The position numbers and the translations under genes are program-made. A model generated the notes under the pieces. That model saw only the letters and a list, made by a program, of their open reading frames with translations, made no database searches and was not told the DNA's origin. From contig CANJCO010000030.1 of NCBI GenBank assembly GCA_947473045.1, positions 1 to 58,212 on the forward strand: a stretch of DNA of 58,212 nucleotides, in the 5' to 3' direction. This document shows, piece by piece, positions 6,008 through 43,997 of this stretch (its first letter is position 1; each line of letters starts with the position of its first letter). This DNA comes from Myxococcales bacterium (GTDB lineage Bacteria; Myxococcota_A; Polyangia; Polyangiales; Polyangiaceae).

Positions 6008-9000
6008 ATGATCGAGTCAGTCCGCCCCAAAGCTCCTGCTGCAATCGCCGCAACGCTCGCTGCTCTCGACGAGCGAATGGGAGGTGAACGCGAGACGCTC
6101 GACGCGTTCCTGCTCGCGCTGAGTCGCAATCAGTTGCCCGAAGGCGCGTGGCAGAAGCTCGCCGAAGCGGCCGCCCGCGACGGGCGCGTGGCCGAGGTGG
6201 CCTTCGCGTTCGAGGAGCTGTCGCAGGACAAGCGCATCAAGACGCTGACCGCTGCGCTCGCGGCCGAATTCTTCTTTCAGGCGGCTACGTTTTTTCAAAA
6301 CACGCTAGGCGACAACGCGGGCGCGCTCGGGTTCGTCAATCGCGCCCTCGCCGCGCAGGCGACGCACGTCGGCGCCCGCCAGCTACGCGAAGTGCGGCTG
6401 CTGTCCGAGGGTGATTTTGCAGGCCTTGGCGCGCACTACGCCGAGTCTGCAGCGACGCGTCCAAAGGCCGAGCAGGTGGAGCAACTCAAGCGCGCAGCCG
6501 CCGCATTCGAGCAGGCGCCCGAGGCGCTCGACCGACTCATCGAGGTGCTCACGACCGTGGTGCGGCTCGACCCGAACGACGCGCAGGCGCGTACAGATCT
6601 CGCGAGCGCGCTCGGCGCTGCGGGACGAACCAAGGAGCTGTCGCGACTGCTCGAGCAGACGATCGCGAGCCAACCCGACGCGCCTGCCGCGAGACGAAAG
6701 CTCATCGCGATCTACACCGCCGAAAAGCGCGAACTCGAACGCGCGATGCCCCACGTCGAAGCGCTGCTGGCCGAGGACCCGCGCGATTCGGAAGCGCTCC
6801 AAACCGCAGCGCTGCTGCTCGAGATTCGCACGACAACGGCTCGGGCCGCCGAGGCGCTCGCAACGGCCACCGAGGCTACGGGCGAAGTTGCTGCGGCTGC
6901 GCGCCACTGGGCGACGGCGGCGGAGCAGGTTCGCGGACCGAAGCGCGTGGCGGCGCTCAAACGTCTCGCAGCGCTGCGCCGCGACCGGCTCGGCGACGAC
7001 GCAGGCGCGTTCGAGGCGGCCGACGCCGCGCTCGTTCTGGACGCGGGCGACGGCGAGCTGATGACGCAGTACGTGGCACTCGCGCGCTCGCTCGGCAAGC
7101 AGGCTGACGCTCTCAGGACGCTGCAGCGCGCCGGCGCCTCGGCGCGTGAGGCGGAGGGCAAGGGCCGCGTCGGCGTCGAAATCGGCGTGCTCCTCGCAGA
7201 GGCAGGCGACCCAAAGCGCGCTCGAAGCGCGCTGCAGACGGTGCTGGCTGCGGCAGAAATCAGCGATGGTCTCCGCGCGCGCGCCTCGCACGCGCTGGCG
7301 TCGCTACTCGAACAGGTCGGTGATTTTTCAGCCTTGGCGGAGGTGCTCGACGGCCTCGCGCGAATTGAGACGGACGCCGATGCCCGCCAGCGGGTGCTCG
7401 TGCGGATCGCCGAGCTCGCCGGAGCTCCCCCACGCGATCATCGCAAAGCCATGACCGCGTGGCGCGCGCTGCTGACCACCGCGGCGCGCGAGCGTGCGAT
7501 GGCCGAACTCGAAGCGCTGCTCGCTGAGCACGGCGACGACGTGGCGCTTGCCGCGCTGCTGCGCGAGCGCGCAAGCGAGGCCACCGATCCGGCGAGCGCG
7601 CGCGACCTGCTCGTTCGCGCCGCGCGGGCGCTGTCGGGAGCCAGCGGTCACCTCGCGGAGGCCTCCGCGTCGTGGCGCGCGATCGTCGAGCGGTTCGGCC
7701 CCGACGCCGAGACGCTCCGGTCATGGCTGCCACTGCTCGAACTCGAGGGCGACATCGCCGCGCTGACCGGCGGACTCGAGGCCCTCGCGAAGCTCACGCA
7801 AATGCCGGAGCGTGCGAAGGTGCTCACAAAGCTTGGCCTCGTGCGACTGGAGCGCGGGGGCGATCCGCCCGGAGGCGCGGCCGCCCTCGCCGAGTCGTTC
7901 GCGCTCGATGATTCCGACGACGCGTGCCTCCGCGCCCTCGCCGCGCTCGTCGACGGCCCCGACGACGAAGCGGCGCTGATCGCAGCACGTTCTCTCGAGC
8001 CGCGTTATCGCGCCGAGGGTTCGCCGCACGCGCTGCTGGGTCTGCTCGAAGAGCGCGCCCGGCGCTCCCCCGATGTCGGCGTACGCATCGAAACGCTCCT
8101 CGAGGCCACCGAAATTGCCGGTGCGCTGCCGGATGCCCGACCCCGCGCGATCGCGCTCGCGTGTCGCGGACTGCGCGAGGCGCTCGACTCGTCGCTCGCG
8201 TCGGGCGAATGGCTCACTTGCGTAGCAGCGCTGACCGATTCACCGGCGCACGCGCGCTCACTTCCGGCAGCGCTGCTCGGCGCGCTCGGCGGCGCTCCAG
8301 TGAGCAGCGACGCGCGGCTGGCCGTGGCGCTTCGCGCTGCGCGTTCTGCCGCAGCGCTGCGCGACGTCGGTGCGGCGATCGATGCCTACCGCCTCGCGCT
8401 CGCGTATCGTCCAGGCGACGCGGCGCTCGCCTTCGAATTCGAGGCGCTGCTGCGCGAACAGGGCTCCCCAGCCGACCGCCTCGCGCTCCTCCGCGCGACG
8501 CTCGCGCACGGCGGCGACGCGACAACGCTTGGCGCCGGGCATCGCGCGATCGCTGCGCTGTTGCGCGACGAGCTCGGTGATCCGGCGGGGGCACTCGCCG
8601 AGCTGCAGCGAGCCACAGCGCTCGACCCAGACGACCTCCTCGCCGAAAACGCGCTCGTCGATCTGCTGGTCGCGACAGGCCGCGCAGCAGAGGGTCTTGC
8701 TATCCTTGAGACGCGCGCTCGCCGCGCGCCTTCGGGCGGCGAGCGACGGGCAGTGCAGGTCAAGATCGCCGAACTCGCGAGCGTCAGCGGACTGCCCGAA
8801 GTAGCGTCGGCGAGCGCTCGCGGCGTACTGGGCGACGCGGACGTAACCGGCGAGGATCTCGACGTCGTGGAGGCCGTCGCCGAGCGACTCGGTGACATCG
8901 ATCTGGTCCGCGATACGTTCGCGGCAAGAACGTCGCGCGCCGACGGGCACGACGAGCGCATCTTCTGGCTCACGCGCCTCGGGGAGCTCGAGGGCGAGCG

Positions 9001-12000
9001 AAGGAACGACGCCGACGCCGCGGCGACCGCGTGGAAAGCTGCAGCGCGGCTCGCCCGCGAAAACGATGGCCCGCTGGCGGCGCGCAAGCTCTTCGAGCGA
9101 GCCCTCCGCGCGGCGCCTGGCGATCGCGAATCAATGACCGCGCTGGCGCAATTCGCACTCGCGGCGCAAGAGTGGAACACGCGCGGGCAGCTGCTTCGGG
9201 CGCTCGCGGCGAGCGAGACCTCGCCGTCGGCGATGGCGGCTGCGCTCATGCTGCTCGCCGAGCATCTCCGCGACCGCGAAGGCGATGCGCTCGCAGCGTT
9301 CGAGGCAGCGTCGCGCGCGTTCGAGGCGATCCCTGACGACGCAAGCCTCTTGCACGCGGCAGTGGCCTACGCGCACAGCGCCGGCAGCGCGGCGGCGTTC
9401 GCCAAGACCCTCGAGATCGCCACGGAGCGCGTCGACGCCGCGGAGCCCCGCGCCCAGCTTGCTCTCGCCGCCGCGCGATTGCGATGCGCAGACTCCGTCA
9501 AGGAAGCGGTCTGGTTGCTCAAGCCAACGCTCGCGAGCGAAGCGCTCGATGGCGCGTTCCGCGCGCAGCTTGCTCGTGCGCTCGAGCAGGAGATCGCCCG
9601 CGTCGAACCCGCGTCGATCGAGCGTCGCGCGCTCTTAGCGTGGCTGCACGAACACGCCAGCGGCGCAGAACACGCCAGCGCAGCGATGGACTGGGGCCGC
9701 TTCGAAGAGGCACACGGGGACGCGCCGCGCGCGCTCGCGCTCTTCAAGGAAGCGATGGAACTCGGAGCGGCAGCAGCGGCCGATGTCGCGAGACTGCTGC
9801 TCGCTGCCGGAGACGTCGAGGCGGCGATCGCGGTCCTGCGAGCCGACGCGGCGGACGGATCGCGCGAAGCGCAGAGAGGTTCGGCGCGCGCGCTCGCGAG
9901 GCTCCTGGCCGAGCATCCCGGGTTCGAGCCGCTCGCGCTGGCCGAAGTCGAGGCGCTGCTTGACGAGCGCCCCGATGACGCAGAGGCAATTCGCATCGTC
10001 GCGCGGCTCATGAGCGTCGACGCCTGCCGCGAACGAGCCTCGGCGCTGCTCGAATCTGCGCTCGCTGCGCCCGGCGAACCCGCTGAGCGAGCCGTCCTGC
10101 TCGAGGCGCTGCTCGCCGGCGCCCTTGATGCGCCGGCAGACTCTCGCCAGCGCTGGCTCGTCGCGCTCGTCGACGCGTGCCGCGCGATCTCCGCCGCCGA
10201 GACGTTGCGCGCGCTCGTCAGAAGTCTGCCTGAGGTGCCGCTCGATTTCGCGTGGTGGGACGAGGCCGAACTCCTCGCTCGGGAGCTCGACCGTCCACAA
10301 GACGTCGCCGACACGTACCGTCATGCGCTCGCCTCGAAGCTCTCCCCCGACGACCTTCTCGAGCTCGGAGCGCGAGCGGTCGCGTTTCACGAAGAGTGGT
10401 TCGAAGACACCTCGCAGACGATCCGAATCCTCGACCAGCTCGTCGATGCACAGGCCGACGGTGGGTGGGCCTTCGATCGCCTCAGGCTGCTGTACGATTC
10501 GCAAGAACGCTGGGACGATCTGTTCGAGCTGTGCGATCGCGTCATCGCGCGCGCCTCCGACGCCAGAAGAGCGGAGCTGCTCGACGAAGTTGCGCAAATC
10601 GCCAAGGATTTCGCGAAAAATTCAGACCGGGCGATTGGGTATTTCGAGCAACTGCTCATGCTCCGGCCCACCAGCGAGAGGCTCATTGCGGCGCTCGAGC
10701 GGCTGTATGAGCGCAGCGGACGACACCGCGACCTGATCGCGCTGCTCGGCGCACGCGTCGGCGGAGCGAGCGACAGCGATGCCCGCGCGTTGCGCGTTCG
10801 CATGGCGCAGCTCTGGCTCGACGAGCTCGGTGATGCCGGCGCCGCGCTGCTGGTCACCGAAACGCTCATCGAGGCTGCTGACGACCAGGTGACGTCAACG
10901 CGGCTGCTCGAGCGCGTGCTCGCGACGGCCCTGCCGCACGACGAAGTGAAGCGCGAGCTGCCCGTGACCTCCTCGCCCGCGAGCGAGAGCGTCGCCGCAG
11001 CGCGCCCGTCCCAGCGACCGCTCGATCCCAGTCCGCGCAAGGCGGGCCCGGCGGCCGTGCTCGTTCGCGCGCGCGCCGCAGCGCTGCTTGCCGCGCGCTA
11101 TGCGGCGCCCGGTCAGGAGCGCAACCTCGCGCGCGTTCTCGAGGTCGAGATCGAGTACCTCGGCGGCGACGAGAGCGCACAACGTCACCGCGATCTCATC
11201 GCGCTCCACGCCGGCCTCGGCGATCCCGGAGCAGCGCTCGAGCACGCCGTCGCTTTGTTTCTCCACGACCCTGCCGACGCTGCAAATCGCGGAGAGCTCG
11301 AGCGTTTTGCGGCATCGACGGGCCGGTTCGACCGGCTGGCAGACGTCCTCGAGCGCGCCGCGACCGGGAGCGAGGACGTCGCGCTCAGCGCCGCCTTGCG
11401 ACTTCAGGCAGGGCTCGTCTGGAGCGAGGCGGCGGGTGATTCAGCTCGCGCGATCGAACAACTCACGCGCGTCGCGTTCGTAGACGGCGCGACGATTACA
11501 GCGCTCGCGGCGGCGACGCAGCTCGAGCAGCTCCTTCGTGCTGCGCGCCGGGAGCACGAGCGTCTCGGCATCCTCGAACGTATCGCCGCGCTCACAGCGG
11601 AGCCGACCGCCCGCCGCATGGCGCGCGGCGACGTGGCGCGACTGGCCGCGCAGCTGGGCGAGATCGACCGCGCCATCAACGCCTGGGAGGCGTGTCTTGC
11701 AGACGCACCCGGAGACCTGGAGGCGCTCACCGGGCTCGCCGATCTGCTGGAAGCCGACGGACGTTCACGGCCCCTCGTCGCCGTGCTTTCGGCGCGCGCC
11801 GCGGCAAGCACTGACGCCGCAGACGTACGCCGCGATCACGTGCATATTGCACATATTTTGGAGCATGCGCTGTCCGACCGTGCCGGCGCGATCGAAGCCT
11901 GGCTCCGTGTCGAGGCCGGGTTCGGCGAGACCGACGAGACGGTCGCGTGCCTGACGCGCCTCCACGGAGCCCTCGGCGACCACGCTGCGCTCTGCGACGT

Positions 12001-15000
12001 GCTCAGTCGGGCGATCGCGCGGGCGACAAGTGACGACAGCCGCGCCGCGCTGGGAACGCAACGGGGAGACCTGCTTCGCGCGCACCTCGGCGACGACTCG
12101 GGCGCCGCACGCGCCTACGCTGCCGCACTCGACGCCGACATCACCGCGAGGGCCGCCCGCGAAGGCCTGCGTGCGCTCGCGGACTCCCCCGAGGCGGGAC
12201 CGCTGGCGACCCGCACGCTGCTTGCGGTCCTCGCGCGGGCCGAAGACTGGACGGCGTTTCTCGAGCTCACCCCGCACCGCCTGCGCACCGCGGCCGATGC
12301 CCCCGCCAAGGTCGCCATTTTCGTCGAGTCCGCGCGCATCGCCGAGCAGCACACACGCCAGCAGGACGTCGCGTTCGAATGGCTCCAAAGCGCGCTCCTC
12401 GAGTCGGCCGGAGACCCCGACATCGAAGTCGAGGCCGCGCGGCTGGCCGAACTCACGAACAACTGGGAGCGCCACCTGGGCACCCTGACCTCGCTCGAGC
12501 CCGTCATCGCGCAGAGCGGCGAGCCGGAGCGACTGACGGCGCTGCGCCTGAGTCTCGCGCACGTGCTCGACGAAAAGCTCGGCGCGCTCGGCGATTCGCT
12601 CGCGGCCTACGAGCGCATACTTTCCAGCGGCGCTCACAGCCCCTCCGCGGCGGCGCTCGCGATCAGCGTTGCCGCACGTGCGGGGCGCTTCGACGCGATG
12701 GCGACCGTCGCGCTTCGTCACACGCGCGACGCCGAAAGGCTCGACGGTGCGCTCGTCGAGTGCATCGAGCGCTCGCTCCAGGCGGCCGGGGCGTGGAGTC
12801 AAGCCGCCCGCGCATTCGAAGCAGCGGTCTGCGAGCAGCCGGACCTGACCGCGCGCGATCGACGCGACCTCGAGGGTTTGATCGGCATATGGCACCGCGA
12901 TCGCCTCGGCGATCTGGCCTCCGCCGAGGCCGCGTTCTACCGCGCGCTCGCGCACGCGGAGGCAGACATCGAGCTGCTGCAGGCGCTCGCGGAGCTTCAA
13001 CGCAAGGCGCCCGGCCCTTCGCTCGTCCAGACGCTGCTCCGCCTCGCGCGCGGTCTCGGCGACGACCTGCAGCTTATGCGAGAGGCCGCTGAGGTAGCGA
13101 TTCGCGCAGCCGATCGCGAGGGCGCGCTGGCCATCCTTATGGCCACGCTCGATATCGCTGCGACGCGGTGGCAGAGCGCGCGAGCCGGCGATGTCCCCGC
13201 GCAGGAGACCGAGCTCGAGCAGCTCGTCGAATGGGTGCTGGCCGAGCTCGCCCGAATCCACGACCACGCCCGTGCCCCTCGCGAGCGCGTCGCTCTCGCG
13301 CTGCGCGCGGCCGGCCTTCCCTTCAGCAGCGAGCGCAGGCGCGCCCTCGAGCACGAGGCGGCGCATATCGCCGAGACGCGCGCAGAAGACATCGACGCAG
13401 CGCAGGAGATCTACGCGCGACTTTTCGCGGAGTCCGCGCACGACGCAGTCGCGGCCCAGCGATTGACTGCAATCTACACAGATCGGGGCGACGGGCGCGC
13501 CTTGCTCGGAGTTCGGCGCCGTGAGCTCGCCGAGGGTGCGGGGTCCCTGGCGCGTCCGGACCTGCTCGCAGAGATCGCGCGCATCGAAGTGACGCTCGGC
13601 AACGACGAGGCTGCGTTCGATGCACTGAACGCCGGCCTCGCCGAGGCACCACGGCACCCGGGCTGCGCGGCGGCGCTCGCGGCGCTGCTGGAGCGGGGCG
13701 CGCGCTTTGAAGAGCTGTTCACCCTGCTGCAGCAACAGGCGGCACGCGCCGAGACCGACGGCGATCGCGCAGAGGCGTCGTCGCTGTATTCGCGATCAGC
13801 CGAGGTCGCGCGGGCGCAGCTCGCCGATTCGTCGCGCGCCGAGTCGGCGCTCGGCCTGAGTCTGACGCTCGAGCTGCGCATCGGCACGCTGCGCGATTTG
13901 GCACAGTTGCTCGAAGCGCGCGGAGACCACGCGGGCGCTGCAAAGTGCCTCGATCAGCTGCTCCAGCAGTTCCCCGGGGAGCGCACGGGCAACCTGTGCT
14001 GGCTCGCACGGAACCTGGAATCATCCGGGCGCGACGACCTCGCCCAGCAGCGCCTCGAAGGAGCGCGCGCAGACGGCATCGAGCCGCAGGGCGCCCTCGC
14101 AATGCTCGAGGCGATCTACCGAAGAACCGATCAGCATCTGCCCCTCGCCGACATTCTGGCCGAACGCGCCGCGCGCTCGCTCGACTCCGCAGAGCAGCTT
14201 GCCGTCGCGCGCGAAGCCGCCGCGCTGTACCTTTCTCCATGCGCGATGCCCGAACGCGCGATACCGCTACTTGAGCTTGCGCGGCGGCTCGCGCCCGACG
14301 ACCGCGACCTGAGCCTGTCGCTCGCCGACGCGCTTCGCGCAGCGGGCCGAAGCGACGATGCTCGCGACCTGCTGAAAGATATGCTCAGCGCGTTCGCGGG
14401 ACGACGCCCAAAGGAGAGAGCCGTCGTCCACTTCTATCTGGCGAGACTGGCCCTGACGACGGGCTCGCGACCGCAGGCGCTCGCCGAGCTCGAGGCCGCA
14501 ACGCGCATCGACCCCACCAACGCCGAGATCCTGCGCGCGGTCGCGGAGCTCGCCCGTGACGACGGGCAGTTCGAAAAGGCGGAGCGCTCGTATCGGGCCC
14601 TTCTTGCTGTGCTTCGGAGGCAGGCCGAGACCGATCCGCGCGCTCCGATTGTGCGCGCAGAGGTCTTTCTGGAGTTGTCGCTCATCGCCCAGCGACAAGG
14701 CGAAAATGACCGCGCCGGAGAGATCCTCGAGAGCGCGTTCGAAGCGGCTGCGACCTCCGACGTCGACGCTGCCCGGCTCGACGCGGCGCTCCGCGCGCAA
14801 GGCCGACACGCAGACCTCGCGCGATCGCTCGAAGCCCGAATCGCGCGGGCCGGTCACGGCGCCCTCGCGGCCACCCTGCTCGCGGATCTCGCGCGCCTGT
14901 CCGACGAGCACCTTGCGGCGCCAGAGCCCGCATTTCGAGCGGCGATGCGAGCGCTCAGCGAAGCCCCCGAGCTGCCTGTCATTCTAGACGGCGCGCTCGC

Positions 15001-18000
15001 GCTCTGCGCGAAGCTCGGGCGCCTCGGCGACTGCATCGACCAGCTCGAGCGCGAGGCCGCGCGCGCTGCGGCGGCCGGAGATCTTCGCCTCGCGGGCAGT
15101 CTGTTCATGCGAAGCGCGAATGAACTCGCGGCGACCGATCCCGCGCGCGCTTCCAGGCTTTTCGCGCATGCCGAGAGCTCGCCCGAGGTCGCGATCGAAG
15201 CGCTGCGCGCGCAGCGGCAGCTTCACGAGTCGCTCGGAGACTTCGTCGCCGAAACCGCCGCGCTCAAGCGACTCGCGCTGCGCGAGCTCGAGTCTCCGGA
15301 CGCGGAGTCCTCGGCGAGCGCCGAGCTCTTTTGCGAGCTCGGGGAGCGACTCCTCGGCAGCAGCGACAGCGTCGATGAGGCCTGCCTGTGGCTCGGCAGG
15401 GCGATGTCGCAGCCTGGACAGATCGACCGACTGGTCGCCGCGCTCGCTTGCGTAGGCCCTCCCGATGAGACGCGCATGGCGTTTCTGAACCTGCTCGAGC
15501 GGGTCGGACGCGAGCCCGAACAGCAGGCCACGCTGTTTCGGGCGCTGTCGCTTCGCGCGCGCTCGTCGGAGTCGGGCGCGGCCGTCGCCGAGGAGGCGGC
15601 GCGTCTCGCGCTGTCTTTGGGCAACGATTCGGCGGCGGACGCCCTGCTCGAGCTTTGCGAGGCGCGCGCCGTCGGCGACCGGCTGCCTACTGCGCGATGG
15701 GCAGCAGCCGAGCGGGCCCGCCTCTCCGAGACGCGAGGCGATGAGGCCTCGGCGTTGCGGCACCTGGCGCGCGCGTCGGAGCACGCGGGCAGCGACGACG
15801 CCCGCGCACTTCGACTGGAGGTAGCCCGCAGGGCGTTGCCGATCGGCGCTGCCCAGCTCGCCATCAGCATGCTCGAGCGGGCGGTCGACGCGCAGCCTGA
15901 TGATCACGAAGCGCTTGCGGCGCTCGCGCTCGCGTACCGGGCTCAAGCGGACCACGAAAAGCTCGCCGATCTGCTCGGTCGCCGCATCGATTTGAGCACA
16001 ACGGCCGAAGCGCGCGCCGAGCTCAGACGCGAGCGAGCCGAGTTGCTAGCGGACGCGCTCGGTCGCCCCGAAGAGGCCGCGCGCGAGCTCGAAGCGCTGT
16101 TCGACGAAGACCCGCGGGATGCGGCATCCGGGGCGATGCTGCTGCGGCTGCTCGAGGCGAGCGGTGACGAAATCGGGCTCGAACGCGTGCTGCTGCGCCT
16201 GATCGACGCTGCGAAGGACCGGGAAGACGCTGAGGCCGTAGGCGCCCTGTCGCTGCGCCTCGGCGCGATCGTCGAAAAACGCAACGCCGACGACGCGCGC
16301 GACGTCTACCTTGCGGCGCTCGATTGGCGGGGCGACGATGTGCGCTTGCTGCTCGCGGCGCTCGGAGCAACCTCCGACCCCATCGACCGGTCCGAGCTTC
16401 TGAGCAAGCTGATTCCGTTCGAGTCCGGCGAGGTCGCCGAAAAGCACGCGCTCGAGCTCGGCAGACTGCGCATCGAGGCGTGGGACGAGGTTGGCGAGGA
16501 GCGCGCGTATGAGCTCGGCCTCGCGGCGTTCCCGGGCAGCACGGCGCTCAAGGAGCGCCTCGAGAAGGCCTACGCGGCGCGAGGAGACCTACGCAAGAGC
16601 GCGGAGCTGCTCGAGACTATCGGACGCGGTGCGACAGACGACGCGGAGGCTGCGCGGACGCTCATCCGTGCCGCCGCCATTTTCGACACAGAGCTCGGCG
16701 ACCTGAAAGCGGCCGCCCGGGTGCTTCGCGCTGCGGTAGCTCGCGACCCCGGCAACTCTCAACTCTTCGACGACATGCTCTCCTGCGCCGAGCGCGGCGG
16801 CGATTTCGACGGCGCGCAGGCGGACCTCACGACCAAGCTCACTTCGATGGAAGAAGCGCCTGCCTCCGAGCGTGCGCGCGTGTTCGGAAGGCGCGCGCGG
16901 ATGCTGGCGGAGTCAGGCGATCCGCTCGGAGCCATCGCAGACGCCGAAGCCGCGTTCGCCGCAGACAGCGAAGCGCACGCGACCCTGCTCATCGAGCTGC
17001 TCGAGCGCACCGGCGCATCGATCGAATCTCCGGAGCGCGCGCGGGATCATGCCGTGAGGCTGGCGACGGCCCTGGCCGCATCGTCACGCGAGGCAGAGGC
17101 CACTGTCCATGTCGAAGGCGTCCTGCTCGTAGATGATTCGCACACGGGTGCGCTCGAACTCATGGCGGCCTTGCATACGCGCGCGGGTCGTCACGACGAC
17201 GCCGCGCGCGTCTTCGATCGCATCACGGCGATCACGCCCGACAGCGAAGTCGCGGCGCTCGCGCTTCGACTCGTCACCATCGGTGCGTCCATCGGGGCGC
17301 CCTCACTCGCGCGGCAAAGCCTGGAGCGCGCGTGGGCGATCGATCCCGGTGACGCCGCTGTCAGCGCTGAGCTGAAGAGCCTCTACGAGGCCGCCGACGA
17401 CGCGGGGGCGCTCGCCGCAGTCCTGATGAGCGACGCCCGCACCGCCGCTTCCGACGACACCCGGTTCGACGCGCTCATGCGCGCCGGCGCGCTCTACCTC
17501 GAGGCCGACGACGCCGGGAGCGCCACGCTGGCGCTGACGGCCGCGCAGGCGCTCAGGCCGACCGACCTGGCCTCCGCCGCGCTCGTCGCCGAGGCGCTCT
17601 TTCGCGAGGGCCGGCTCGACGAGGCGACCCGGTGCGCACAGTCCGCGATTGTTGCGCAAAAGGGCCGCCGTTCACCCGAGATCGGGGCGCTCTACCACGT
17701 GCTCGCGCGCGTCGAACGTGCGCTTGCGAGCGACGCGGGCGAGGTGAGCATGCTGATGAGCGCCTTCGAAGCCGACGGCCAGAGCGCAACCATCGCCTCC
17801 GAGCTCGCCGAGGCCGCGGCGCGCGAAGGCAAGCTCGAGCTCGCACAGAAAGCGCTGCGCGCGATAACGATGCTCAAAGGGCCGTCACCCCTGCCCAAAG
17901 CCGAAGCCTACGCGCGACTCGGGGCCATCTCGATTCAGCAGGGCGATTCAAAGCGCGCCATCGCTTTGCTCAAGCGCGCCGTCGCTGAAGATGCAGGCAA

Positions 18001-18043
18001 CTCCCTCGCCAGCAGGCTGCTCCAAACGCTGAGCGGCGAGTAG
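6008..18043 (+). CDS. Giant tetratricopeptide-repeat protein (4011 residues)
   Basis: A single uninterrupted frame of 4011 codons with no signal peptide and no membrane segment, so the product should be cytoplasmic. The sequence is a chain of helical TPR-like repeats rich in Ala, Leu, Arg and Glu. A recurring pattern is R..LGD..GA...Y..AL..DP.D..A...L..LL...GR, for example DELGDPAGALAELQRATALD and DPDDLLAENALVDLLVATGR. A Pro/Ser-rich break (VTSSPASESVAAARPSQRP, about residues 1645-1680) may separate two superhelical blocks. No enzyme domain was found, so it is probably a scaffold. The ATG at 6008 has only a weak upstream AGGCGG. glyQ starts 33 nt after its stop and may be co-transcribed. Function is unknown. 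Confidence 0.9.
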   Translation: MIESVRPKAPAAIAATLAALDERMGGERETLDAFLLALSRNQLPEGAWQKLAEAAARDGRVAEVAFAFEELSQDKRIKTLTAALAAEFFFQAATFFQNTLGDNAGALGFVNRALAAQATHVGARQLREVRLLSEGDFAGLGAHYAESAATRPKAEQVEQLKRAAAAFEQAPEALDRLIEVLTTVVRLDPNDAQARTDLASALGAAGRTKELSRLLEQTIASQPDAPAARRKLIAIYTAEKRELERAMPHVEALLAEDPRDSEALQTAALLLEIRTTTARAAEALATATEATGEVAAAARHWATAAEQVRGPKRVAALKRLAALRRDRLGDDAGAFEAADAALVLDAGDGELMTQYVALARSLGKQADALRTLQRAGASAREAEGKGRVGVEIGVLLAEAGDPKRARSALQTVLAAAEISDGLRARASHALASLLEQVGDFSALAEVLDGLARIETDADARQRVLVRIAELAGAPPRDHRKAMTAWRALLTTAARERAMAELEALLAEHGDDVALAALLRERASEATDPASARDLLVRAARALSGASGHLAEASASWRAIVERFGPDAETLRSWLPLLELEGDIAALTGGLEALAKLTQMPERAKVLTKLGLVRLERGGDPPGGAAALAESFALDDSDDACLRALAALVDGPDDEAALIAARSLEPRYRAEGSPHALLGLLEERARRSPDVGVRIETLLEATEIAGALPDARPRAIALACRGLREALDSSLASGEWLTCVAALTDSPAHARSLPAALLGALGGAPVSSDARLAVALRAARSAAALRDVGAAIDAYRLALAYRPGDAALAFEFEALLREQGSPADRLALLRATLAHGGDATTLGAGHRAIAALLRDELGDPAGALAELQRATALDPDDLLAENALVDLLVATGRAAEGLAILETRARRAPSGGERRAVQVKIAELASVSGLPEVASASARGVLGDADVTGEDLDVVEAVAERLGDIDLVRDTFAARTSRADGHDERIFWLTRLGELEGERRNDADAAATAWKAAARLARENDGPLAARKLFERALRAAPGDRESMTALAQFALAAQEWNTRGQLLRALAASETSPSAMAAALMLLAEHLRDREGDALAAFEAASRAFEAIPDDASLLHAAVAYAHSAGSAAAFAKTLEIATERVDAAEPRAQLALAAARLRCADSVKEAVWLLKPTLASEALDGAFRAQLARALEQEIARVEPASIERRALLAWLHEHASGAEHASAAMDWGRFEEAHGDAPRALALFKEAMELGAAAAADVARLLLAAGDVEAAIAVLRADAADGSREAQRGSARALARLLAEHPGFEPLALAEVEALLDERPDDAEAIRIVARLMSVDACRERASALLESALAAPGEPAERAVLLEALLAGALDAPADSRQRWLVALVDACRAISAAETLRALVRSLPEVPLDFAWWDEAELLARELDRPQDVADTYRHALASKLSPDDLLELGARAVAFHEEWFEDTSQTIRILDQLVDAQADGGWAFDRLRLLYDSQERWDDLFELCDRVIARASDARRAELLDEVAQIAKDFAKNSDRAIGYFEQLLMLRPTSERLIAALERLYERSGRHRDLIALLGARVGGASDSDARALRVRMAQLWLDELGDAGAALLVTETLIEAADDQVTSTRLLERVLATALPHDEVKRELPVTSSPASESVAAARPSQRPLDPSPRKAGPAAVLVRARAAALLAARYAAPGQERNLARVLEVEIEYLGGDESAQRHRDLIALHAGLGDPGAALEHAVALFLHDPADAANRGELERFAASTGRFDRLADVLERAATGSEDVALSAALRLQAGLVWSEAAGDSARAIEQLTRVAFVDGATITALAAATQLEQLLRAARREHERLGILERIAALTAEPTARRMARGDVARLAAQLGEIDRAINAWEACLADAPGDLEALTGLADLLEADGRSRPLVAVLSARAAASTDAADVRRDHVHIAHILEHALSDRAGAIEAWLRVEAGFGETDETVACLTRLHGALGDHAALCDVLSRAIARATSDDSRAALGTQRGDLLRAHLGDDSGAARAYAAALDADITARAAREGLRALADSPEAGPLATRTLLAVLARAEDWTAFLELTPHRLRTAADAPAKVAIFVESARIAEQHTRQQDVAFEWLQSALLESAGDPDIEVEAARLAELTNNWERHLGTLTSLEPVIAQSGEPERLTALRLSLAHVLDEKLGALGDSLAAYERILSSGAHSPSAAALAISVAARAGRFDAMATVALRHTRDAERLDGALVECIERSLQAAGAWSQAARAFEAAVCEQPDLTARDRRDLEGLIGIWHRDRLGDLASAEAAFYRALAHAEADIELLQALAELQRKAPGPSLVQTLLRLARGLGDDLQLMREAAEVAIRAADREGALAILMATLDIAATRWQSARAGDVPAQETELEQLVEWVLAELARIHDHARAPRERVALALRAAGLPFSSERRRALEHEAAHIAETRAEDIDAAQEIYARLFAESAHDAVAAQRLTAIYTDRGDGRALLGVRRRELAEGAGSLARPDLLAEIARIEVTLGNDEAAFDALNAGLAEAPRHPGCAAALAALLERGARFEELFTLLQQQAARAETDGDRAEASSLYSRSAEVARAQLADSSRAESALGLSLTLELRIGTLRDLAQLLEARGDHAGAAKCLDQLLQQFPGERTGNLCWLARNLESSGRDDLAQQRLEGARADGIEPQGALAMLEAIYRRTDQHLPLADILAERAARSLDSAEQLAVAREAAALYLSPCAMPERAIPLLELARRLAPDDRDLSLSLADALRAAGRSDDARDLLKDMLSAFAGRRPKERAVVHFYLARLALTTGSRPQALAELEAATRIDPTNAEILRAVAELARDDGQFEKAERSYRALLAVLRRQAETDPRAPIVRAEVFLELSLIAQRQGENDRAGEILESAFEAAATSDVDAARLDAALRAQGRHADLARSLEARIARAGHGALAATLLADLARLSDEHLAAPEPAFRAAMRALSEAPELPVILDGALALCAKLGRLGDCIDQLEREAARAAAAGDLRLAGSLFMRSANELAATDPARASRLFAHAESSPEVAIEALRAQRQLHESLGDFVAETAALKRLALRELESPDAESSASAELFCELGERLLGSSDSVDEACLWLGRAMSQPGQIDRLVAALACVGPPDETRMAFLNLLERVGREPEQQATLFRALSLRARSSESGAAVAEEAARLALSLGNDSAADALLELCEARAVGDRLPTARWAAAERARLSETRGDEASALRHLARASEHAGSDDARALRLEVARRALPIGAAQLAISMLERAVDAQPDDHEALAALALAYRAQADHEKLADLLGRRIDLSTTAEARAELRRERAELLADALGRPEEAARELEALFDEDPRDAASGAMLLRLLEASGDEIGLERVLLRLIDAAKDREDAEAVGALSLRLGAIVEKRNADDARDVYLAALDWRGDDVRLLLAALGATSDPIDRSELLSKLIPFESGEVAEKHALELGRLRIEAWDEVGEERAYELGLAAFPGSTALKERLEKAYAARGDLRKSAELLETIGRGATDDAEAARTLIRAAAIFDTELGDLKAAARVLRAAVARDPGNSQLFDDMLSCAERGGDFDGAQADLTTKLTSMEEAPASERARVFGRRARMLAESGDPLGAIADAEAAFAADSEAHATLLIELLERTGASIESPERARDHAVRLATALAASSREAEATVHVEGVLLVDDSHTGALELMAALHTRAGRHDDAARVFDRITAITPDSEVAALALRLVTIGASIGAPSLARQSLERAWAIDPGDAAVSAELKSLYEAADDAGALAAVLMSDARTAASDDTRFDALMRAGALYLEADDAGSATLALTAAQALRPTDLASAALVAEALFREGRLDEATRCAQSAIVAQKGRRSPEIGALYHVLARVERALASDAGEVSMLMSAFEADGQSATIASELAEAAAREGKLELAQKALRAITMLKGPSPLPKAEAYARLGAISIQQGDSKRAIALLKRAVAEDAGNSLASRLLQTLSGE

Positions 18044-26574: not shown

Positions 26575-27087
26575 TCAACGGCGCCGGGACGCCGGGTCGA
26601 CGGGGCGGTTTTCGTAGGTGGGCATCACCGACGGGACCTTGACGCCGCCGATGTTGGACGGCAGCTCCGGCGGCAGCGGCGAGTCCGGGTACATCACCGT
26701 CGGCATCACGCGGGGCACGCCGTAAGTCGGCTCTTGCTGGGCCCCCTGAAAGGCTCGAACAGCGCCGTCAGCCGACAACATTCCGCCGTCGGGCAACCGC
26801 ACCACAAGGAGCGAAGCCGGCACCCGGTTCGAGGGCTCCGGGGCCGTGAACATCGCCGCCGCTGAGGGCCCGGGGGGAGCCACCGCAGGCGTCCGCGCGC
26901 TCGCGGCGCTGACGACGGGAGCAACGTCCGAAGCCGCGCTCGGCGCGATCGCGCTGTTCGGCGCGGTCAGGGCCCCCGCGGCTGTTTCGGGCGACGACCG
27001 GCTCGCGCAACCGCCGCAACCGCCGCAGCCGCCGCAGCCGGAACACAGCAGCGCGAGGGCGCCCCAAACGATCACGCGACCCCGCAT
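26575..27087 (-). CDS. Lipoprotein with Cys-Gly-Gly repeat at the mature N-terminus
   Basis: A 170-residue lipoprotein. Signal peptide MRGRVIVWGALA ends in lipobox LLCSGC, and the mature chain opens with GCGGCGGCGGCASR, a run of four cysteines spaced every third residue after the lipidated one. The rest is Ala/Pro-rich with no recognised domain. The start at 27087 has a strong GGAGGG ribosome binding site. It heads the minus-strand series lipoprotein, lipoprotein, kinase, priA, comF and diverges from the ABC1 kinase gene. Confidence 0.75.
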   Translation of the reverse strand: MRGRVIVWGALALLCSGCGGCGGCGGCASRSSPETAAGALTAPNSAIAPSAASDVAPVVSAASARTPAVAPPGPSAAAMFTAPEPSNRVPASLLVVRLPDGGMLSADGAVRAFQGAQQEPTYGVPRVMPTVMYPDSPLPPELPSNIGGVKVPSVMPTYENRPVDPASRRR

Positions 27088-27178
27088 CCCTCCAATGTTA
27101 TTCGAAGCGCGGGCGGCAGCGCCAGCCGCCATCCGCGCACGCTGGCCAACAGCCGCGCCGCGGGCGCATACTGCGCGC

Positions 27179-28585
27179 ATGTCCGAGAGCGACGACTCAG
27201 AAGCAAAGCGTCCAGACGCACCGCCCACGTCCCGTTTCGGGCGGCTCGCCAGGCTCACCGCGCTCGCCCCGCGCGCCCTTCCGCTCGCGTCTGCCGCAGT
27301 TCGCAAAGCCCTCGGCGGCAAGGGCACGGCCGAGTCCGACCTCGAAGATCGCAAGCGACTGGCCGCGAGCGCAAAGAAGACCGCCGAGGCGATGCTCAAG
27401 ACCCTCGGAGAGATGAAAGGCCTGCCGCTCAAGCTCGGCCAGATGGCCTCCTACATCGACGGCCTCGCCCCACCGGGATACGAAGAGAAATTTCAGGAGA
27501 CCCTGAAAAAGCTCCAGTCCAAAGCCCCTCCCCTGTCTCCTGCTGCAGCGGTGAAGGTCATCACTGCCGATCTCGGCGCGCATCCCGGGGAGATCTTCGC
27601 CGAGTGGGAGGCAGACCCTTTTGCCGCCGCGAGCATCGGACAGGTTCACCACGCCGTCACCCGGGGCGGCGACAAAGTCGCTGTGAAGGTGCAGTACCCC
27701 GGCATCGACAAGGCGATTGAAAACGACCTCAAGAGCCTGTCGCTGCTCGAACAAATGATCGCGCCGATGGGACGCAAGTACCACACCAAAGAGACGCTCG
27801 ACGAGATCCGCGCAGTGTTCATGGCCGAGCTCGACTACGCGAAGGAAGCCGAGATTAGCGATATCTTCAGACGAATTCACGAAGGAGACGACGAGATCGT
27901 CATCCCGAGGGTGCACCACGCGTTGACCACCCGGCGCGTGCTCACCACCGAGTTGATAGGCGGCGTTGGATACTCCGAGTTCTGCGAGACGGCCTCCCAG
28001 TCCGACCGCAACGCAGCGGGACAGACGATCTGGCGGTTCATGTTCCGCGCCTTCTTCGGGCACAACCTGCTGTATGCCGATCCGCACCCCGGCAACTACC
28101 GGTTTCTGGGAGGTGGCCGCGTCGCGTTCCTCGATTTCGGATGTCACAAAATCATGCCGCCGGAGCTGGTCGCCGGCCAGAAGCGGTATCTCCTCGCGCA
28201 GCAAGCGGGCGACGAGCCTGAGTTCGTTCGCGCGTGCGTCGAGGTGCTCGGCTACGATCCGTCCGACGAAGAAGCGTTCCCGCTTTACATGGAATACACG
28301 CGCCTCGTGACCCGCCCCATCGTCGTCGACGCCCCCTTCAAGTACACGCGGGAATACGCGCGGGAGGCCGTCGCGTTCCTCGTGCGAAACGGAAAGCGAA
28401 TCGTCTTCAAGGACGGCGAGGCGATGCCGAACATGCCGAAGCCCATTCACATGCCGACCGACCACACGTTCGTCAACCGCCTGCAGTGGGGGCTTTCAAG
28501 CGTGCTGGCAGGGCTCGGCGCGGAGGCGAACTGGCGGCAGATGACCGCGCCGTGGATGGGACCGGCCAGGCCCCTTCCGCACTGA
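27179..28585 (+). CDS. ABC1/AarF (UbiB) family atypical kinase
   Basis: A 468-residue member of the ABC1/ADCK/UbiB family, atypical kinases or ATPases linked to isoprenoid-quinone and lipid metabolism. Family signatures: LPLKLGQMASYIDG (KxGQ motif), FAAASIGQVHHA (Ala-rich nucleotide loop), VAVKVQYPG lysine, MAELDYAKEAE, LLYADPHPGNYRF catalytic loop and FLDFGCHKI in place of DFG. The start at 27179 follows a CATACT hexamer by only 6 nt, suggesting a leaderless transcript. No C-terminal membrane helix pair is obvious, unlike E. coli UbiB. The precise substrate is unknown. Confidence 0.92.
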   Translation: MSESDDSEAKRPDAPPTSRFGRLARLTALAPRALPLASAAVRKALGGKGTAESDLEDRKRLAASAKKTAEAMLKTLGEMKGLPLKLGQMASYIDGLAPPGYEEKFQETLKKLQSKAPPLSPAAAVKVITADLGAHPGEIFAEWEADPFAAASIGQVHHAVTRGGDKVAVKVQYPGIDKAIENDLKSLSLLEQMIAPMGRKYHTKETLDEIRAVFMAELDYAKEAEISDIFRRIHEGDDEIVIPRVHHALTTRRVLTTELIGGVGYSEFCETASQSDRNAAGQTIWRFMFRAFFGHNLLYADPHPGNYRFLGGGRVAFLDFGCHKIMPPELVAGQKRYLLAQQAGDEPEFVRACVEVLGYDPSDEEAFPLYMEYTRLVTRPIVVDAPFKYTREYAREAVAFLVRNGKRIVFKDGEAMPNMPKPIHMPTDHTFVNRLQWGLSSVLAGLGAEANWRQMTAPWMGPARPLPH

Positions 28586-28677
28586 GCGGGCATCCGACCG
28601 CGCGCGGCCCGGTTGATCTCGAATTGGTTCGCACGTAAAAGATTGCTACGCGAAACAGTTCGCGAGGAGCCGCGCCG

Positions 28678-29877
28678 ATGATCTCGTTCGAACCCTCCGA
28701 AGACCAACGCATGATGGCCGATCAGGCGCGCGCGTTCGCCAGGTCGCTGCGCCTGCGCATGCGAGAGGCCGAGGCGGCGCGCGAAGTGCCCGCAGACCTC
28801 CGAAAGACCGCCATCGAGATGGGCCTCGGCTCAGTGGCGATCCCCGAGTCGCTCGGCGGCGCAGGCCTCGGACTCGCGACGGCTTCTCTGATCGAGCAGG
28901 AGCTCGCCGCGGGCGACGTGGGCGCAGCGTTCGGGCTCCCCGGCCCCGGAGCGTTCGGCCGCGCGGTCGCCGAGCTCGCCGATACGGCGCAGGCCATCCA
29001 CGCGCTGTCGCTCATCGCGGAAGATGGGTTCGGCGCCGTGGCGTGGGGAGAGCGCGCCCCGCACCCGACGCGCCCGGGCCTGCGCGCGATCGCGCGCCGC
29101 GAAGGCGACGACTGGGTGCTGAGCGGTCAAAAGGCCTACGTCCTGAACGCTGGCCGCGCGAGCGCCTTCGTCGTGTTCGCACAGGTCGACGAGTCGCTCG
29201 GCTGGGCCGGCCTCGGCGCGTTCCTCGTGGCCAGCGATGCGCCGGGCGTGCAGGTCGGCCCGCGCGAGACCACCCTCGGACTCGACGTCGCCAGCGTGGC
29301 TGACGTCACCTTCAACGACGTGCGCGTCAAAGCCTCGGAGCGCCTCGGCGAGGGCGCCAACTTCGAAGCCGCAACGCTGCGGTTTTTTGTAAAAAATGCC
29401 CTGATTATGGCCTCTCGCGCAGTCGGACTCTCGCGCGCCGCCGTCGATGTCACGCGCGACTACGTCGAGCAGCGCAAAGCGTTCGGCAAGCCCGTCGGGC
29501 ACTTTCAGGCCGTGGCGTTCAACGTCGCAGACCGCGCCATGGATGTGGCGGCTTCGTCTGCGATGGTCCTGCGCGCCGCGTGGATGTGGGATGCGGCCGT
29601 GCCCGAGCAGGAGGCCTTGCTCGCCTCGGCGTTCGCGGTCAGCTTCGCGCTCGAGGCCGCCATGCGCTGCGGCGACGACGCCGTTCAGCTGCACGGCGGC
29701 GCGGGGTTCATCCGCGACTATCCGGTGGAGAAGATGATGCGGGACGCCAAACAACTTCAGCTCGCCGGCATGCCGTCGGGCTGCGCCGACCAGCTCGCCG
29801 CCGCAGTGGAGCTGGGACGCCCGCTCGACCTGGGGCTCGTACTTCCCAACGCAGAGTCGCAGAGCGCGCTCGTCTGA
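28678..29877 (+). CDS. Acyl-CoA dehydrogenase family protein lacking the catalytic glutamate
   Basis: A 399-residue protein with the acyl-CoA dehydrogenase fold: N-terminal helical part (GLGSVAIPESLGGAGLGL), middle sheet domain, C-terminal helices with REV-type VEQRKAFGKPVGHFQAVAF and LHGGAGFIRDYPVEKMMRDAK. Two expected elements are missing. The flavin/substrate motif TEP.AGSD reads AWGERAPHPTR (about 122-131), and the IYEGT catalytic segment reads LQLAGMPSG (about 360-368), so no glutamate is at that place. The next gene, a complete dehydrogenase, starts 5 nt downstream. It may be a structural partner in a heteromeric enzyme (inference). Its own activity is doubtful. Confidence 0.88.
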   Translation: MISFEPSEDQRMMADQARAFARSLRLRMREAEAAREVPADLRKTAIEMGLGSVAIPESLGGAGLGLATASLIEQELAAGDVGAAFGLPGPGAFGRAVAELADTAQAIHALSLIAEDGFGAVAWGERAPHPTRPGLRAIARREGDDWVLSGQKAYVLNAGRASAFVVFAQVDESLGWAGLGAFLVASDAPGVQVGPRETTLGLDVASVADVTFNDVRVKASERLGEGANFEAATLRFFVKNALIMASRAVGLSRAAVDVTRDYVEQRKAFGKPVGHFQAVAFNVADRAMDVAASSAMVLRAAWMWDAAVPEQEALLASAFAVSFALEAAMRCGDDAVQLHGGAGFIRDYPVEKMMRDAKQLQLAGMPSGCADQLAAAVELGRPLDLGLVLPNAESQSALV

Positions 29878-29882
29878 CGGAG

Positions 29883-31133
29883 ATGGCCATGATCGAATTT
29901 TCGCTCAGCAAGAGGCAGCTTCAGTTGCGCGACATGGTCCGCGCCTTTGCCGAAAGTGTGGTGCGCCCGCTCGCGCTCACGTGGGACCGCGAGCACCGAA
30001 TCGACGAAGCGTTCCTGTCGAATTTCGTGGCGATGGCTGCCCAGATGGGAGGTCCGGCGGCTTCGTGGGGCGTGCAGGGGCTCGGCGCAGGAAACGCTGA
30101 GCCCGGCCGGCCCGAGACATCCGCCGCGAAGAAATCGGGTTCGGCCAACTTGACGACCGTGTTGTCGGCCGAAGAGCTGGCGTGGGGTGACGCCGCGCTG
30201 CTGCTCAACCTCCCAGGACCTGGACTGGGAGGACCGCCCGTGCGGGCCACCGGCACGCCCGAGCAAAAAGAGCGATTTTTCTCGATCTTCCGCGACATGT
30301 CGAAGGGGCTCAAGTGGGGCGCCTACGCGCTCACCGAGCCCGGAGCGGGCAGCGACGTGGCGGGCATCCGGACCTCCTGCCGCCGGGACGGAAGCGATTG
30401 GGTACTCAGCGGCCGAAAGTGCTACATCACCAATGGCGCGCGCGCGGACTGGAACGTCGTGTTCGCCACGGTCGATCCCGCCCTCGGTCGCGCAGGGCAC
30501 AGAGCCTTTGTCGTCGAGAAAGGCACCCCCGGCTTCACCGTCGGTAAGATCGAAGACAAGATGGGCCTGCGCGCAAGCGAGACGGCCGAGCTGGTGCTCG
30601 ACGACGTGCGCGTGCCCGCCGACAACCTCCTCGGCGGCGACGAAAAGTACACGAACAAGGAAGGCTTCATGACCGCCATGAAGACCTTCGACAACACCCG
30701 CCCGCTCGTGGCCGCCATGGCCATCGGCATCGGGCGCGCGGCGTACGAGTACGCCCGCGACTTCGCCAAACGAAACTACGCCCTCGCGCGCCACACGCCC
30801 CGCTATGCCGCGATCGCCGAGCGGCTCGCCCGCACCGGCCGTCAGCTCGAGGCCGCGCGGCTCGTCACCTGGCAGGCTGCGTGGCTCGCGGATCAAGAGA
30901 AGCCCAACGCGAAGGAGGCCAGCATGTCGAAAGCGATGGGCGGCCAGGCCGCCATCCGCGCGTGCATCGAGGCCATCGAAATTTGCGGGGTGGAAGGCAC
31001 CCTCCAGCGCGATCACCAGCTGCTCGAAAAGTGGTTTCGCGACATCAAGGTCTACGACATCTTCGAAGGCACCGGGCAGATCCAGCGCATCGTGATCTCG
31101 AAGCGGCTCTTCGAGGGCCTGAAGTCGTTTTAG
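29883..31133 (+). CDS. Acyl-CoA dehydrogenase (catalytic residues present)
   Basis: A 416-residue FAD-dependent acyl-CoA dehydrogenase, which introduces the alpha-beta double bond in an acyl-CoA. It retains ALTEPGAGSDVAGI for flavin/substrate binding, FVVEKGTPGFTVGK, and the C-terminal YDIFEGTGQIQRIV with the catalytic glutamate (about Glu395). A segment of about 30 residues rich in Gly, Ala and Ser (near 55-85) interrupts the N-terminal helical part. ATG 29883 has GACGGAG just upstream; an alternative ATG is 6 nt on. It lies 5 nt after the degenerate dehydrogenase, clearly the same transcript. The acyl substrate cannot be told. Confidence 0.92.
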   Translation: MAMIEFSLSKRQLQLRDMVRAFAESVVRPLALTWDREHRIDEAFLSNFVAMAAQMGGPAASWGVQGLGAGNAEPGRPETSAAKKSGSANLTTVLSAEELAWGDAALLLNLPGPGLGGPPVRATGTPEQKERFFSIFRDMSKGLKWGAYALTEPGAGSDVAGIRTSCRRDGSDWVLSGRKCYITNGARADWNVVFATVDPALGRAGHRAFVVEKGTPGFTVGKIEDKMGLRASETAELVLDDVRVPADNLLGGDEKYTNKEGFMTAMKTFDNTRPLVAAMAIGIGRAAYEYARDFAKRNYALARHTPRYAAIAERLARTGRQLEAARLVTWQAAWLADQEKPNAKEASMSKAMGGQAAIRACIEAIEICGVEGTLQRDHQLLEKWFRDIKVYDIFEGTGQIQRIVISKRLFEGLKSF

Positions 31134-40791: not shown

Positions 40792-42507
<1,716 letters not shown>

Positions 42508-42522
42508 GATCTTTGGTTCCTG

Positions 42523-43065
42523 TCAGTTCGGCAACAGAGCGTTCTTGAGGCTCGCAAGGCGAGAGCGAATCGAGCCGTCGAAGACTTGATCGCCGATGCG
42601 CGTGACCACGCCGGCGACGAGTGATGCGTCGGTTTTCCTGTCGAGCACAACCTTCTTGCCCGTCATCTTCTCGAGCTGCGCCTGAAGGCGGCCGTAGAAG
42701 GCGTCGGAGAGCGCGACTGCGCTCGTGACCTCGGCGCGGACAACGCCCTTCGCGAGGTCGTTCATTTCGCGCAGCAGCTGTGCGATCTCGGGAAGCAGTC
42801 GCAACCGGCGACGGTCTCCGAGCAGCAGCAGCGAGTTGCGCGTGACCGGACCAAGCGACAGGCGCGCGGCGAGGTCGCTCAGGATCGCCTTCTTCGCGGC
42901 GTGTGAAACGAGCGGATCGCCCATAACGCGCTGCAGCTCGGGCGAGGCGGCGTAGGTCTCGGCCATGGCCCCGGCCTCGGCGACCACGGCGTCAAGCTCG
43001 CCTGATTCGGTTCCCAGCTCGAGGATGGCCCGGGCGTAGCGGCGCGAGATGTTGGCTGCGATCAC
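42523..43065 (-). CDS. atpH: ATP synthase F1 delta subunit
   Basis: A 180-residue delta (OSCP) subunit that ties the peripheral stalk to F1. The N-terminus IAANISRRYARAILEL and the C-terminal GVVTRIGDQVFDGSIRSRL are the family signatures. Its ATG overlaps the stop of atpF by 4 nt, and atpA begins 15 nt after its stop. Confidence 0.96.
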   Translation of the reverse strand: MIAANISRRYARAILELGTESGELDAVVAEAGAMAETYAASPELQRVMGDPLVSHAAKKAILSDLAARLSLGPVTRNSLLLLGDRRRLRLLPEIAQLLREMNDLAKGVVRAEVTSAVALSDAFYGRLQAQLEKMTGKKVVLDRKTDASLVAGVVTRIGDQVFDGSIRSRLASLKNALLPN

Positions 43066-43997
43066 GTGGCACCCGACGCTTTCTGAGTGGCGAGCGTGGC
43101 GAGGTATTCTTCGGCGAGGCGCTCCTGGTCGGCCTGCGTGACGCCCTTGGCGAGCAGGGTCTCGGCCTGCGCGATGGCGCGCTCAACCGTGTCGCGCACG
43201 AGGTCGAGCTGCATCTGCTTGACCTCCTGCTCCATCAGGAAGGCGGCATCTTTTCGCAGTCGGGCTGCCTTTGCGCCCGCCTCGGCGACGATGCGCTCCT
43301 TTTCGGCTTCGCCGGCGCGCACGAGCCCCTGCGTGGCATCGCGAGCGTCGGCATCTTTCGTGGCCAGCTGCGCCTGGTACCGCTCGGCGCGCTCCTCGGC
43401 TTCGCCGAGAATTTTTGCGGCGTTTTCGATATCTTTGGCGATCGCGTCGCGTCGCTCCTGCAGGCCCGCGGCGATCGGCTTCTTGCCAAAATGCACGTAG
43501 GCGAACACGAGCACGGCGAAGTTGATCAGCAGCGCGACGAGCGGGGGCCACTTGCCTCCGTGCTTGTCCTTTTTGCTGAAATCGAGCCAGTTAATGGCTT
43601 CCGGACCGGCTGCATCGTCGGGTTCCGCGCTGTGGTGGGCCTCTGCGCCGTGAGCAGTTGCCGTGTGGCCGTGCTCGCCCGGCGGCGCCGCGATCTCGCC
43701 GCTCGTGGTGTGCGGGGGCTGAAGAGGCGCAGGCGGCGCGTGCGGAATCGGGTCGGCTGCCAGGGCCGTGGAGGGCGCGACCGCTTCGGGCATGGCCGAG
43801 GCCGCGAGCGCAGGCGCCGCTCCTCCCGGGTCGGTCGCAGTGCCCGGATGTTGCACTGCGCCGGCGTCATTTTTCGCCGCTTGCGCGGCAAATTCGACCG
43901 AGCTGAGGGGTCGTCCGGCGTCCGGAGCGGCGCTGGCGGCTGCAGCGCCGACGGAGATCGCCGCGGCGAGGAAGCACGAAGTCGACAGCTTGCTCAT
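43062..43997 (-). CDS. atpF: ATP synthase F0 b subunit with signal peptide and long N-terminal extension
   Basis: A peripheral-stalk subunit of 311 residues, about twice the usual 155-170. Residues 1-23 form an apparent cleavable signal peptide (LAAAISVGAAAASA-AP). Residues 24-145 are Pro/Ala/His-rich and unstructured (HGHTATAHGAEAHHSAE). The membrane helix is at about 151-168 (PPLVALLINFAVLVFAYV), then a long Ala/Glu/Arg coiled coil typical of b (ERRDAIAKDIENAAKILGEA). If processed, the extension faces the periplasm, keeping the normal N-out topology. It overlaps both neighbours by 4 nt as ATGA, so expression is coupled. Confidence 0.93.
   Translation of the reverse strand: MSKLSTSCFLAAAISVGAAAASAAPDAGRPLSSVEFAAQAAKNDAGAVQHPGTATDPGGAAPALAASAMPEAVAPSTALAADPIPHAPPAPLQPPHTTSGEIAAPPGEHGHTATAHGAEAHHSAEPDDAAGPEAINWLDFSKKDKHGGKWPPLVALLINFAVLVFAYVHFGKKPIAAGLQERRDAIAKDIENAAKILGEAEERAERYQAQLATKDADARDATQGLVRAGEAEKERIVAEAGAKAARLRKDAAFLMEQEVKQMQLDLVRDTVERAIAQAETLLAKGVTQADQERLAEEYLATLATQKASGAT

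Follow-up and report, generated by a model that had tools for sequence, protein, structure and literature searches.

In ordinary acyl-CoA dehydrogenases (ACADs) the flavin adenine dinucleotide (FAD) is bound at a dimer interface, with one subunit contributing the flavin pocket and the catalytic base and the other reaching over to its ADP portion. The most familiar heteromeric ACADs are those of steroid degraders. As described in the excerpts of the papers cited here, the alpha subunits in the ChsE4-ChsE5 and ChsE1-ChsE2 structures bind the isoalloxazine and have the glutamate while the beta subunits bind ADP-ribose (PMC11153573), the ChsE alpha2beta2 enzymes work likewise (PMC8399759), a heterotetramer is suggested for PimCD-like dicarboxylate enzymes (PMC12543098), and the mycobacterial FadE23-FadE24 complex is tied to fatty-acid recycling, deletion of a FadE24 orthologue giving an important reduction in triacylglycerol (PMC11980559). 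Here we describe an adjacent pair of ACAD genes, A and B, in a 58,212-nucleotide contig (CANJCO010000030.1 of assembly GCA_947473045.1; the whole stretch is referred to as the window) from a Myxococcales bacterium of the family Polyangiaceae. Each product retains a different half of the FAD site and lacks the other, and from these sequences we think it highly probable that the two proteins together form a single obligate heteromeric ACAD, most likely alpha2beta2. Our search of open-licence texts found no account of such pairs in myxobacteria.

Gene A (28678..29877) is predicted to encode a 399 aa ADP-side (beta-like) subunit and gene B (29883..31133) a 416 aa catalytic (alpha-like) subunit; these genes and all features within them are on the + strand. 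Both products contain the Pfam N-terminal, middle and C-terminal ACAD domains, all above gathering scores, which places both in the superfamily, and their nearest solved relatives by sequence are medium-chain acyl-CoA dehydrogenase (MCAD) and other homomeric ACADs. Residues are numbered as in MCAD, with the human MCAD entry as the ruler and with 20 of 80 control loci used (those with a translated stretch >300 aa). A has no TEPxAGSD, has Gly in place of the catalytic Glu376 (29767..29769), and has Asn at position 255, where isovaleryl-type enzymes have their base; B retains both the flavin motif TEPGAGSD (30333..30356) and the catalytic Glu, in IFEGT (31065..31067). A preliminary description of this DNA had reported that motif and Glu are missing from A and present in B, and the open reading frames and the MCAD alignment bear it out. 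What it missed is the reverse loss in B, from which R281, F284, Q349 and G353 have all gone, with N-Y-A-L-A (30774..30788) replacing R-x-x-F-G and E-I-C-G-V-E-G (30978..30998) replacing Q-x-x-G-G-x-G. A keeps all four, in R-K-A-F-G (MCAD 281-285; 29473..29487) and Q-L-H-G-G-A-G (MCAD 349-355; 29686..29706), and both segments are predicted to contact the FAD of the partner, F284 being a residue that we presume to reach the neighbour's FAD in MCAD. For the Arg, Gln and Gly, an excerpt on human short-chain acyl-CoA dehydrogenase (SCAD) describes FAD as held by G160, S161 and T187 of one monomer and by R297, Q365 and G369 of the adjacent one, and reports that the variant Q365H prevents tetramer formation (PMC13027082). 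By our own matching of SCAD to MCAD, Q365 probably corresponds to MCAD position 349, which is Glu in B. With one half of the FAD site missing from A and the other from B, the evidence for a heteromer is stronger than it had been in the preliminary description.

As for the assembly, stoichiometry, activity and electron acceptor of the proposed A-B enzyme, B would supply the flavin pocket and the Glu base, and A the cross-subunit contacts only; of the two FAD sites at each A-B interface one would be complete and the other dead, and A-A or B-B dimers would have no complete site. An obligate heteromer is predicted because the complete site would form only at the A-B interface. B would oxidise an acyl-CoA at the alpha-beta bond, with electrons passing to electron-transferring flavoprotein (ETF), and ETF alpha is present in the same genome. 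MCAD- and SCAD-type homotetramers are like A and B in fold, are their closest solved structures and have the base at Glu376 as in B, but they are homomers with both FAD-site halves in every subunit.

The reciprocal loss is conserved among relatives of the window's type. With near-copies collapsed there are 42 A and 43 B rows (44 B rows before collapsing), and the controls are 94 other ACAD rows selected independently of motif, 3 unassigned rows among them; counts for position 255, Asp143, Thr378, prolines and the type II pairs introduced below are from a separate table that leaves out 4 rows <330 aa and the 3 unassigned rows. G141, S142 and D143 are kept together in 0/42 A and 43/43 B, and the same figures apply to G141, to S142 and to Glu376 taken singly. 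R281, F284, Q349 and G353 are kept together in 40/42 A and 0/43 B, the individual values being 42/42 versus 4/43 for R281, 42/42 versus 0/43 for F284, 40/42 versus 1/43 for Q349, and 42/42 versus 0/43 for G353. Of the 94 controls, 91 have G-S-D, 89 have the R/F/Q/G set, 89 have Glu376 and 89 have both sets, which leaves 5 that do not have both. Adjacency alone does not yield this pattern, since two adjacent ACADs on a Priestia plasmid, our negative control, each have all of the motifs. A rough dN/dS for A against two near relatives is ~0.2 (NG86; dS about 1.0-1.2); given this ratio, and given that 42 A and 43 B sequences show the loss, neither chance nor decay accounts for it. Pseudogene decay of A is likewise ruled out by its intact frame and its occurrence in 13 genera in a 377-genome sample, together with that ratio. 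An isovaleryl-type alternative base in A, which the preliminary description had raised as a possible objection, was also looked for and is ruled out, position 255 being Asn in the window and acidic in just 3/42 A rows; in B this position is Thr in 43/44 rows and Ser in 1/44.

These counts also bear on a different reading, in which B forms a working homomer by itself and A is a pseudoenzyme that serves some distinct purpose, regulation or the binding of acyl-CoA. It would fit the presence in B of its own flavin-pocket and base residues (43/43), yet no B row has the full set with which a subunit holds its neighbour's FAD, it is these very residues that A retains, and the SCAD change Q365H, which according to the excerpt prevents tetramer formation, falls at one such position (PMC13027082). 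We regard it as very unlikely.

Split-site pairs similar to A-B, here called type II, are FadE24-FadE23-like and were recognised also in Nocardia, Tsukamurella and Rhodococcus (L201-L203). These three, compared here in place of the mycobacterial proteins, we take to be FadE24-FadE23 (Rv3139-Rv3140 in mycobacteria) from synteny, hisN being annotated upstream in Tsukamurella and Rhodococcus (L202, L203). They are like the window's pair in having the ADP-side gene first and the catalytic gene second, the base at 376 and reciprocal loss, although identity is only 32-34% for A and 38-42% for B, and their A has Phe142 and keeps Glu376 whereas the window's A has Pro142 and its type lacks Glu376. Among type II A rows in general, Phe142 is present in 19/21. 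Three other actinobacterial matches (L204-L206) are single genes with both residue sets. A reciprocal pair of type II is also present in two Acinetobacter baumannii records (L207:3674-6203 and L208:3677-6206), labelled as plasmids and about 4 Mb long, and its catalytic subunit is 62% identical to that of Nocardia.

Trees were built from subsets of 105, 95 and 54 rows, long-branch rows being left out of the two smaller sets. In the quick 105-row tree the window's type, the type II pairs and the three actinobacterial single genes form one group with a Shimodaira-Hasegawa-like approximate likelihood-ratio (SH-aLRT) value of 97, comprising an A sub-group (97) and a B sub-group (99); the pairs nearest to the window's type are L161, L162 and L174, and PimCD/ChsE-type pairs lie apart. 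The careful 54-row tree joins the A subunits of L201-L203 with those of the window's type (bootstrap/SH-aLRT 94/96) and likewise the B subunits (100/99), only the latter node being starred in the tree output, and removal of 77 motif-bearing columns leaves these values at 89/87 and 100/99. In these trees A-B falls with the FadE24-FadE23-like pairs, so named from synteny, and not with the ChsE/PimCD type. Approximately unbiased (AU) tests do not reject joining A with PimCD/ChsE-type beta subunits (p-AU 0.203) or B with the alpha subunits (p-AU 0.248), long branches meeting there, and a separate origin of the two lines is therefore favoured but not shown.

The PimCD/ChsE-type rows in these trees stand in for true ChsE sequences, which the trees do not include, and were gathered with the model TIGR03203, none scoring above its cut-off; one has chain 6wy8 (Tcur3481) as its best match and 4x28_D also among its matches, both of which we take to be steroid-degrading heteromeric ACADs. 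The known members, ChsE1-ChsE2 and ChsE4-ChsE5 (FadE28-29 and FadE26-27) and the PimCD type, are like A-B in that one subunit has the flavin pocket and base and the other the ADP contacts, as an excerpt describes for the solved structures (PMC11153573). The Myxococcota loci of this type (L181-L200) are unlike the window in having an acidic residue at 255, the catalytic gene first, and separate branches, with a neighbouring catalytic partner with acidic 255 in 19 of the 20 fetched; motif was the criterion for sorting these rows into alpha and beta, which leaves position 255 as the one independent result among them. In ChsE itself the base is presumably also at 255. The fetched loci contain 83 steps from one ACAD gene to an adjacent one on the same strand; sorted into crude automatic classes, 58 run from an ADP-half to a catalytic-half gene, 19 from a catalytic-half gene with acidic 255 to an ADP-half gene, 5 from an intact or unclear gene to a catalytic-half gene, and 1 is intact-intact.

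We are evenly divided over the wider proposal that heteromeric ACADs with a split site have two or more origins, one in a ChsE-PimCD steroid/dicarboxylate group (base 255, catalytic gene first) and another in an independent MCAD-like line (base 376, ADP-side gene first). The latter would include FadE24-FadE23-like actinobacterial pairs, Acinetobacter pairs and the divergent subtype of the window, which is seen so far only in Myxococcota and would act outside steroid degradation. If it is true, mirror-image losses at this interface in another line would make the splitting of one FAD site over two subunits a repeatable route, and a simple sequence test, asking which half of the FAD site each of two neighbours has kept, would pick out enzymes of this kind from proteins whose sole annotation is acyl-CoA dehydrogenase. 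The FadE24-FadE23-like pairs likewise gain a testable reading.

Several observations weigh against a heteromeric A-B dehydrogenase. R281 and Q349 survive in a few B rows (four and one of 43), and among A rows Asp143 survives in 9/42, Thr378 in 36/42 and an acidic residue at 255 in the three already mentioned. Type II A rows often keep Glu or Asp at 376 (17/21), and loss of the base in A is thus not general among type II pairs. Only single chains were modelled, and while the AlphaFold model of A has the complete ACAD fold (mean predicted local distance difference test score, pLDDT, 90.8), that of B is poor (mean pLDDT 56.1), probably because its underlying alignment consists of 16 similar rows. 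Lastly, an excerpt from a 2025 paper attributes to the FadE23-FadE24 complex of mycobacteria, on another source's authority, a catalytic activity that is not acyl-CoA dehydrogenation (PMC11980559), and dehydrogenation by the FadE24-FadE23-like branch is for that reason not certain. The A-B heteromer could then catalyse something other than alpha-beta dehydrogenation, such as a reduction, and the best NCBIfam match of both A and B is indeed acryloyl-CoA reductase, at scores far below the cut-off. Sub-threshold family matches say little, however, and the catalytic Glu and G-S-D are conserved in all 43 B as in dehydrogenases, so we consider another activity unlikely.

Close relatives of the pair were found by exact peptide patterns, 80 loci being kept, a method that does not settle the range outside Myxococcota. 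In 30/30 loci, representing 27 distinct A and 27 distinct B sequences, B comes 3' of A with no change of strand. At E<=1e-70, 19/377 of the genomes sampled from the phylum have A, and they comprise 16 from the same family (including the window's own), 2 from the same order and 1 from the same class; B, at E<=1e-75, is found in 89/183 genomes of the same order, 51 at 63-100% identity (three partly covered) and the rest at 40-53%. Every one of the 14 named window-type loci belongs to a Myxococcota metagenome-assembled genome (MAG), for example of Labilithrix or Polyangiaceae. Among the lower-identity B regions, 19 of 20 fetched have an A-like gene directly upstream, the remaining one (L179) being a lone gene that has every motif. 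Among these 19 pairs, all four cross-subunit residues are present in 18 A, the exception being L172 (Trp284, Met349), and two or more are missing from all 19 B, that of L170 keeping R281 and Q349. In one relative a contig (G007:C17) has two further divergent split-site pairs (L161 and L162), about 28 kb apart. On a Syntrophomonadaceae contig (L052:1978-4346) an intact ACAD lies beside one that has the flavin half but K, R, D and S at the cross-subunit positions, and this second ACAD is possibly another split-site case, in Bacillota.

The preliminary description had likened the pair to FadE28-FadE29 and suggested a specialised, perhaps ring- or side-chain-bearing, CoA substrate. The heteromeric arrangement with complementary site parts agrees with the reciprocal loss, but the likeness to steroid enzymes lies in the way of working, and kinship with them is not supported. 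The reading in which A-B belongs to the ChsE/FadE28-29 group and dehydrogenates steroid (or bile acid) side chains is the least probable of the alternatives that we have weighed, even though the split-site logic is the same and the AU tests do not reject the joining. The catalytic subunits of ChsE/PimCD type in the same phylum have an acidic 255 in 18/18 and Glu376 in 0/18, their gene comes first, and their subunits form other branches. Scores of A and B against the NCBIfam models TIGR03203, TIGR03204 and NF050027 are far below cut-off or there is no listed match. The search for steroid markers was confined to the IpdE2 and PimD models: in the window's own genome nothing PimD-like matched at E<=1e-40 (9/12 candidates scored), and no IpdE2 match above cut-off was found there or in any of 7 carriers, nor in 14 control genomes, so that this model has no positive control; five of the seven carriers have sub-threshold IpdE2 matches. 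PimD-like proteins are present in some other carriers (e.g. G014, G022, G033 and G146), and the window-type pair and PimD-like proteins can thus coexist. Across the phylum, PimD/ChsE-like ACADs occur at E<=1e-40 in 70/187 Myxococcota genomes.

Two further points recall the steroid enzymes. B has Pro at MCAD position 99 (44/44 rows) and 101 (39/44), reminiscent of the Pro-loop of ChsE4, although equivalence of the positions is not established; an excerpt states that prolines in the same helix of long-chain acyl-CoA dehydrogenase (LCAD), ACAD11 and ChsE4 widen the pocket (PMC11153573). The paralogous sister pairs L161 and L162 belong to a cluster that also encodes an acyl-CoA ligase, SCP-x-type thiolases, MaoC hydratases and a CoA transferase, with a luciferase-like monooxygenase also on the contig, a gene set that fits breakdown of a bulky acyl-CoA by that subgroup. 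For the window's pair a specialised bulky substrate is possible, perhaps a bulky or branched acyl-CoA, but a steroid is not supported, and no catabolic gene was recognised beside the pair among the window genes scanned.

Nor was a conserved catabolic operon found elsewhere, the two ACAD genes being all that is common to 13 regions (12 loci and the window). Neighbours are shared in part, upstream genes in up to 6 loci and downstream genes in 5, and of 10 flanking open reading frames from 6 loci, 4 belong to unrelated Pfam families and 6 to no Pfam family. In the window an ABC1/UbiB-like kinase gene (26846-28585) is on the same strand as A and ends 92 nt 5' of it; outside the window's own loci, ABC1-kinase matches were found only at L170 and at Acinetobacter L207/L208, all beside related pairs, many loci having 1.5-kb flanks. 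Putative ribosome sites precede both genes, AGGAG (28665..28669, + strand) 8 nt 5' of the ATG of A, and GGAG (29879..29882, + strand) 6 nt 5' of an ATG at 29889 in B. The latter is the likelier B start because this GGAG suits it better than it does the ATG at 29883; the 5-nt gap between A and B given in the preliminary description holds for a start at 29883, and becomes 11 nt with 29889. In a Labilithrix MAG the A-B gap is 179 nt and contains an apparent tandem repeat of about 19 nt (L035:5923-6102). Elsewhere in the window there are ATP synthase alpha/beta-family and B-subunit genes (40792-43997, - strand), and a single open reading frame of 4011 aa (6008-18043, + strand).

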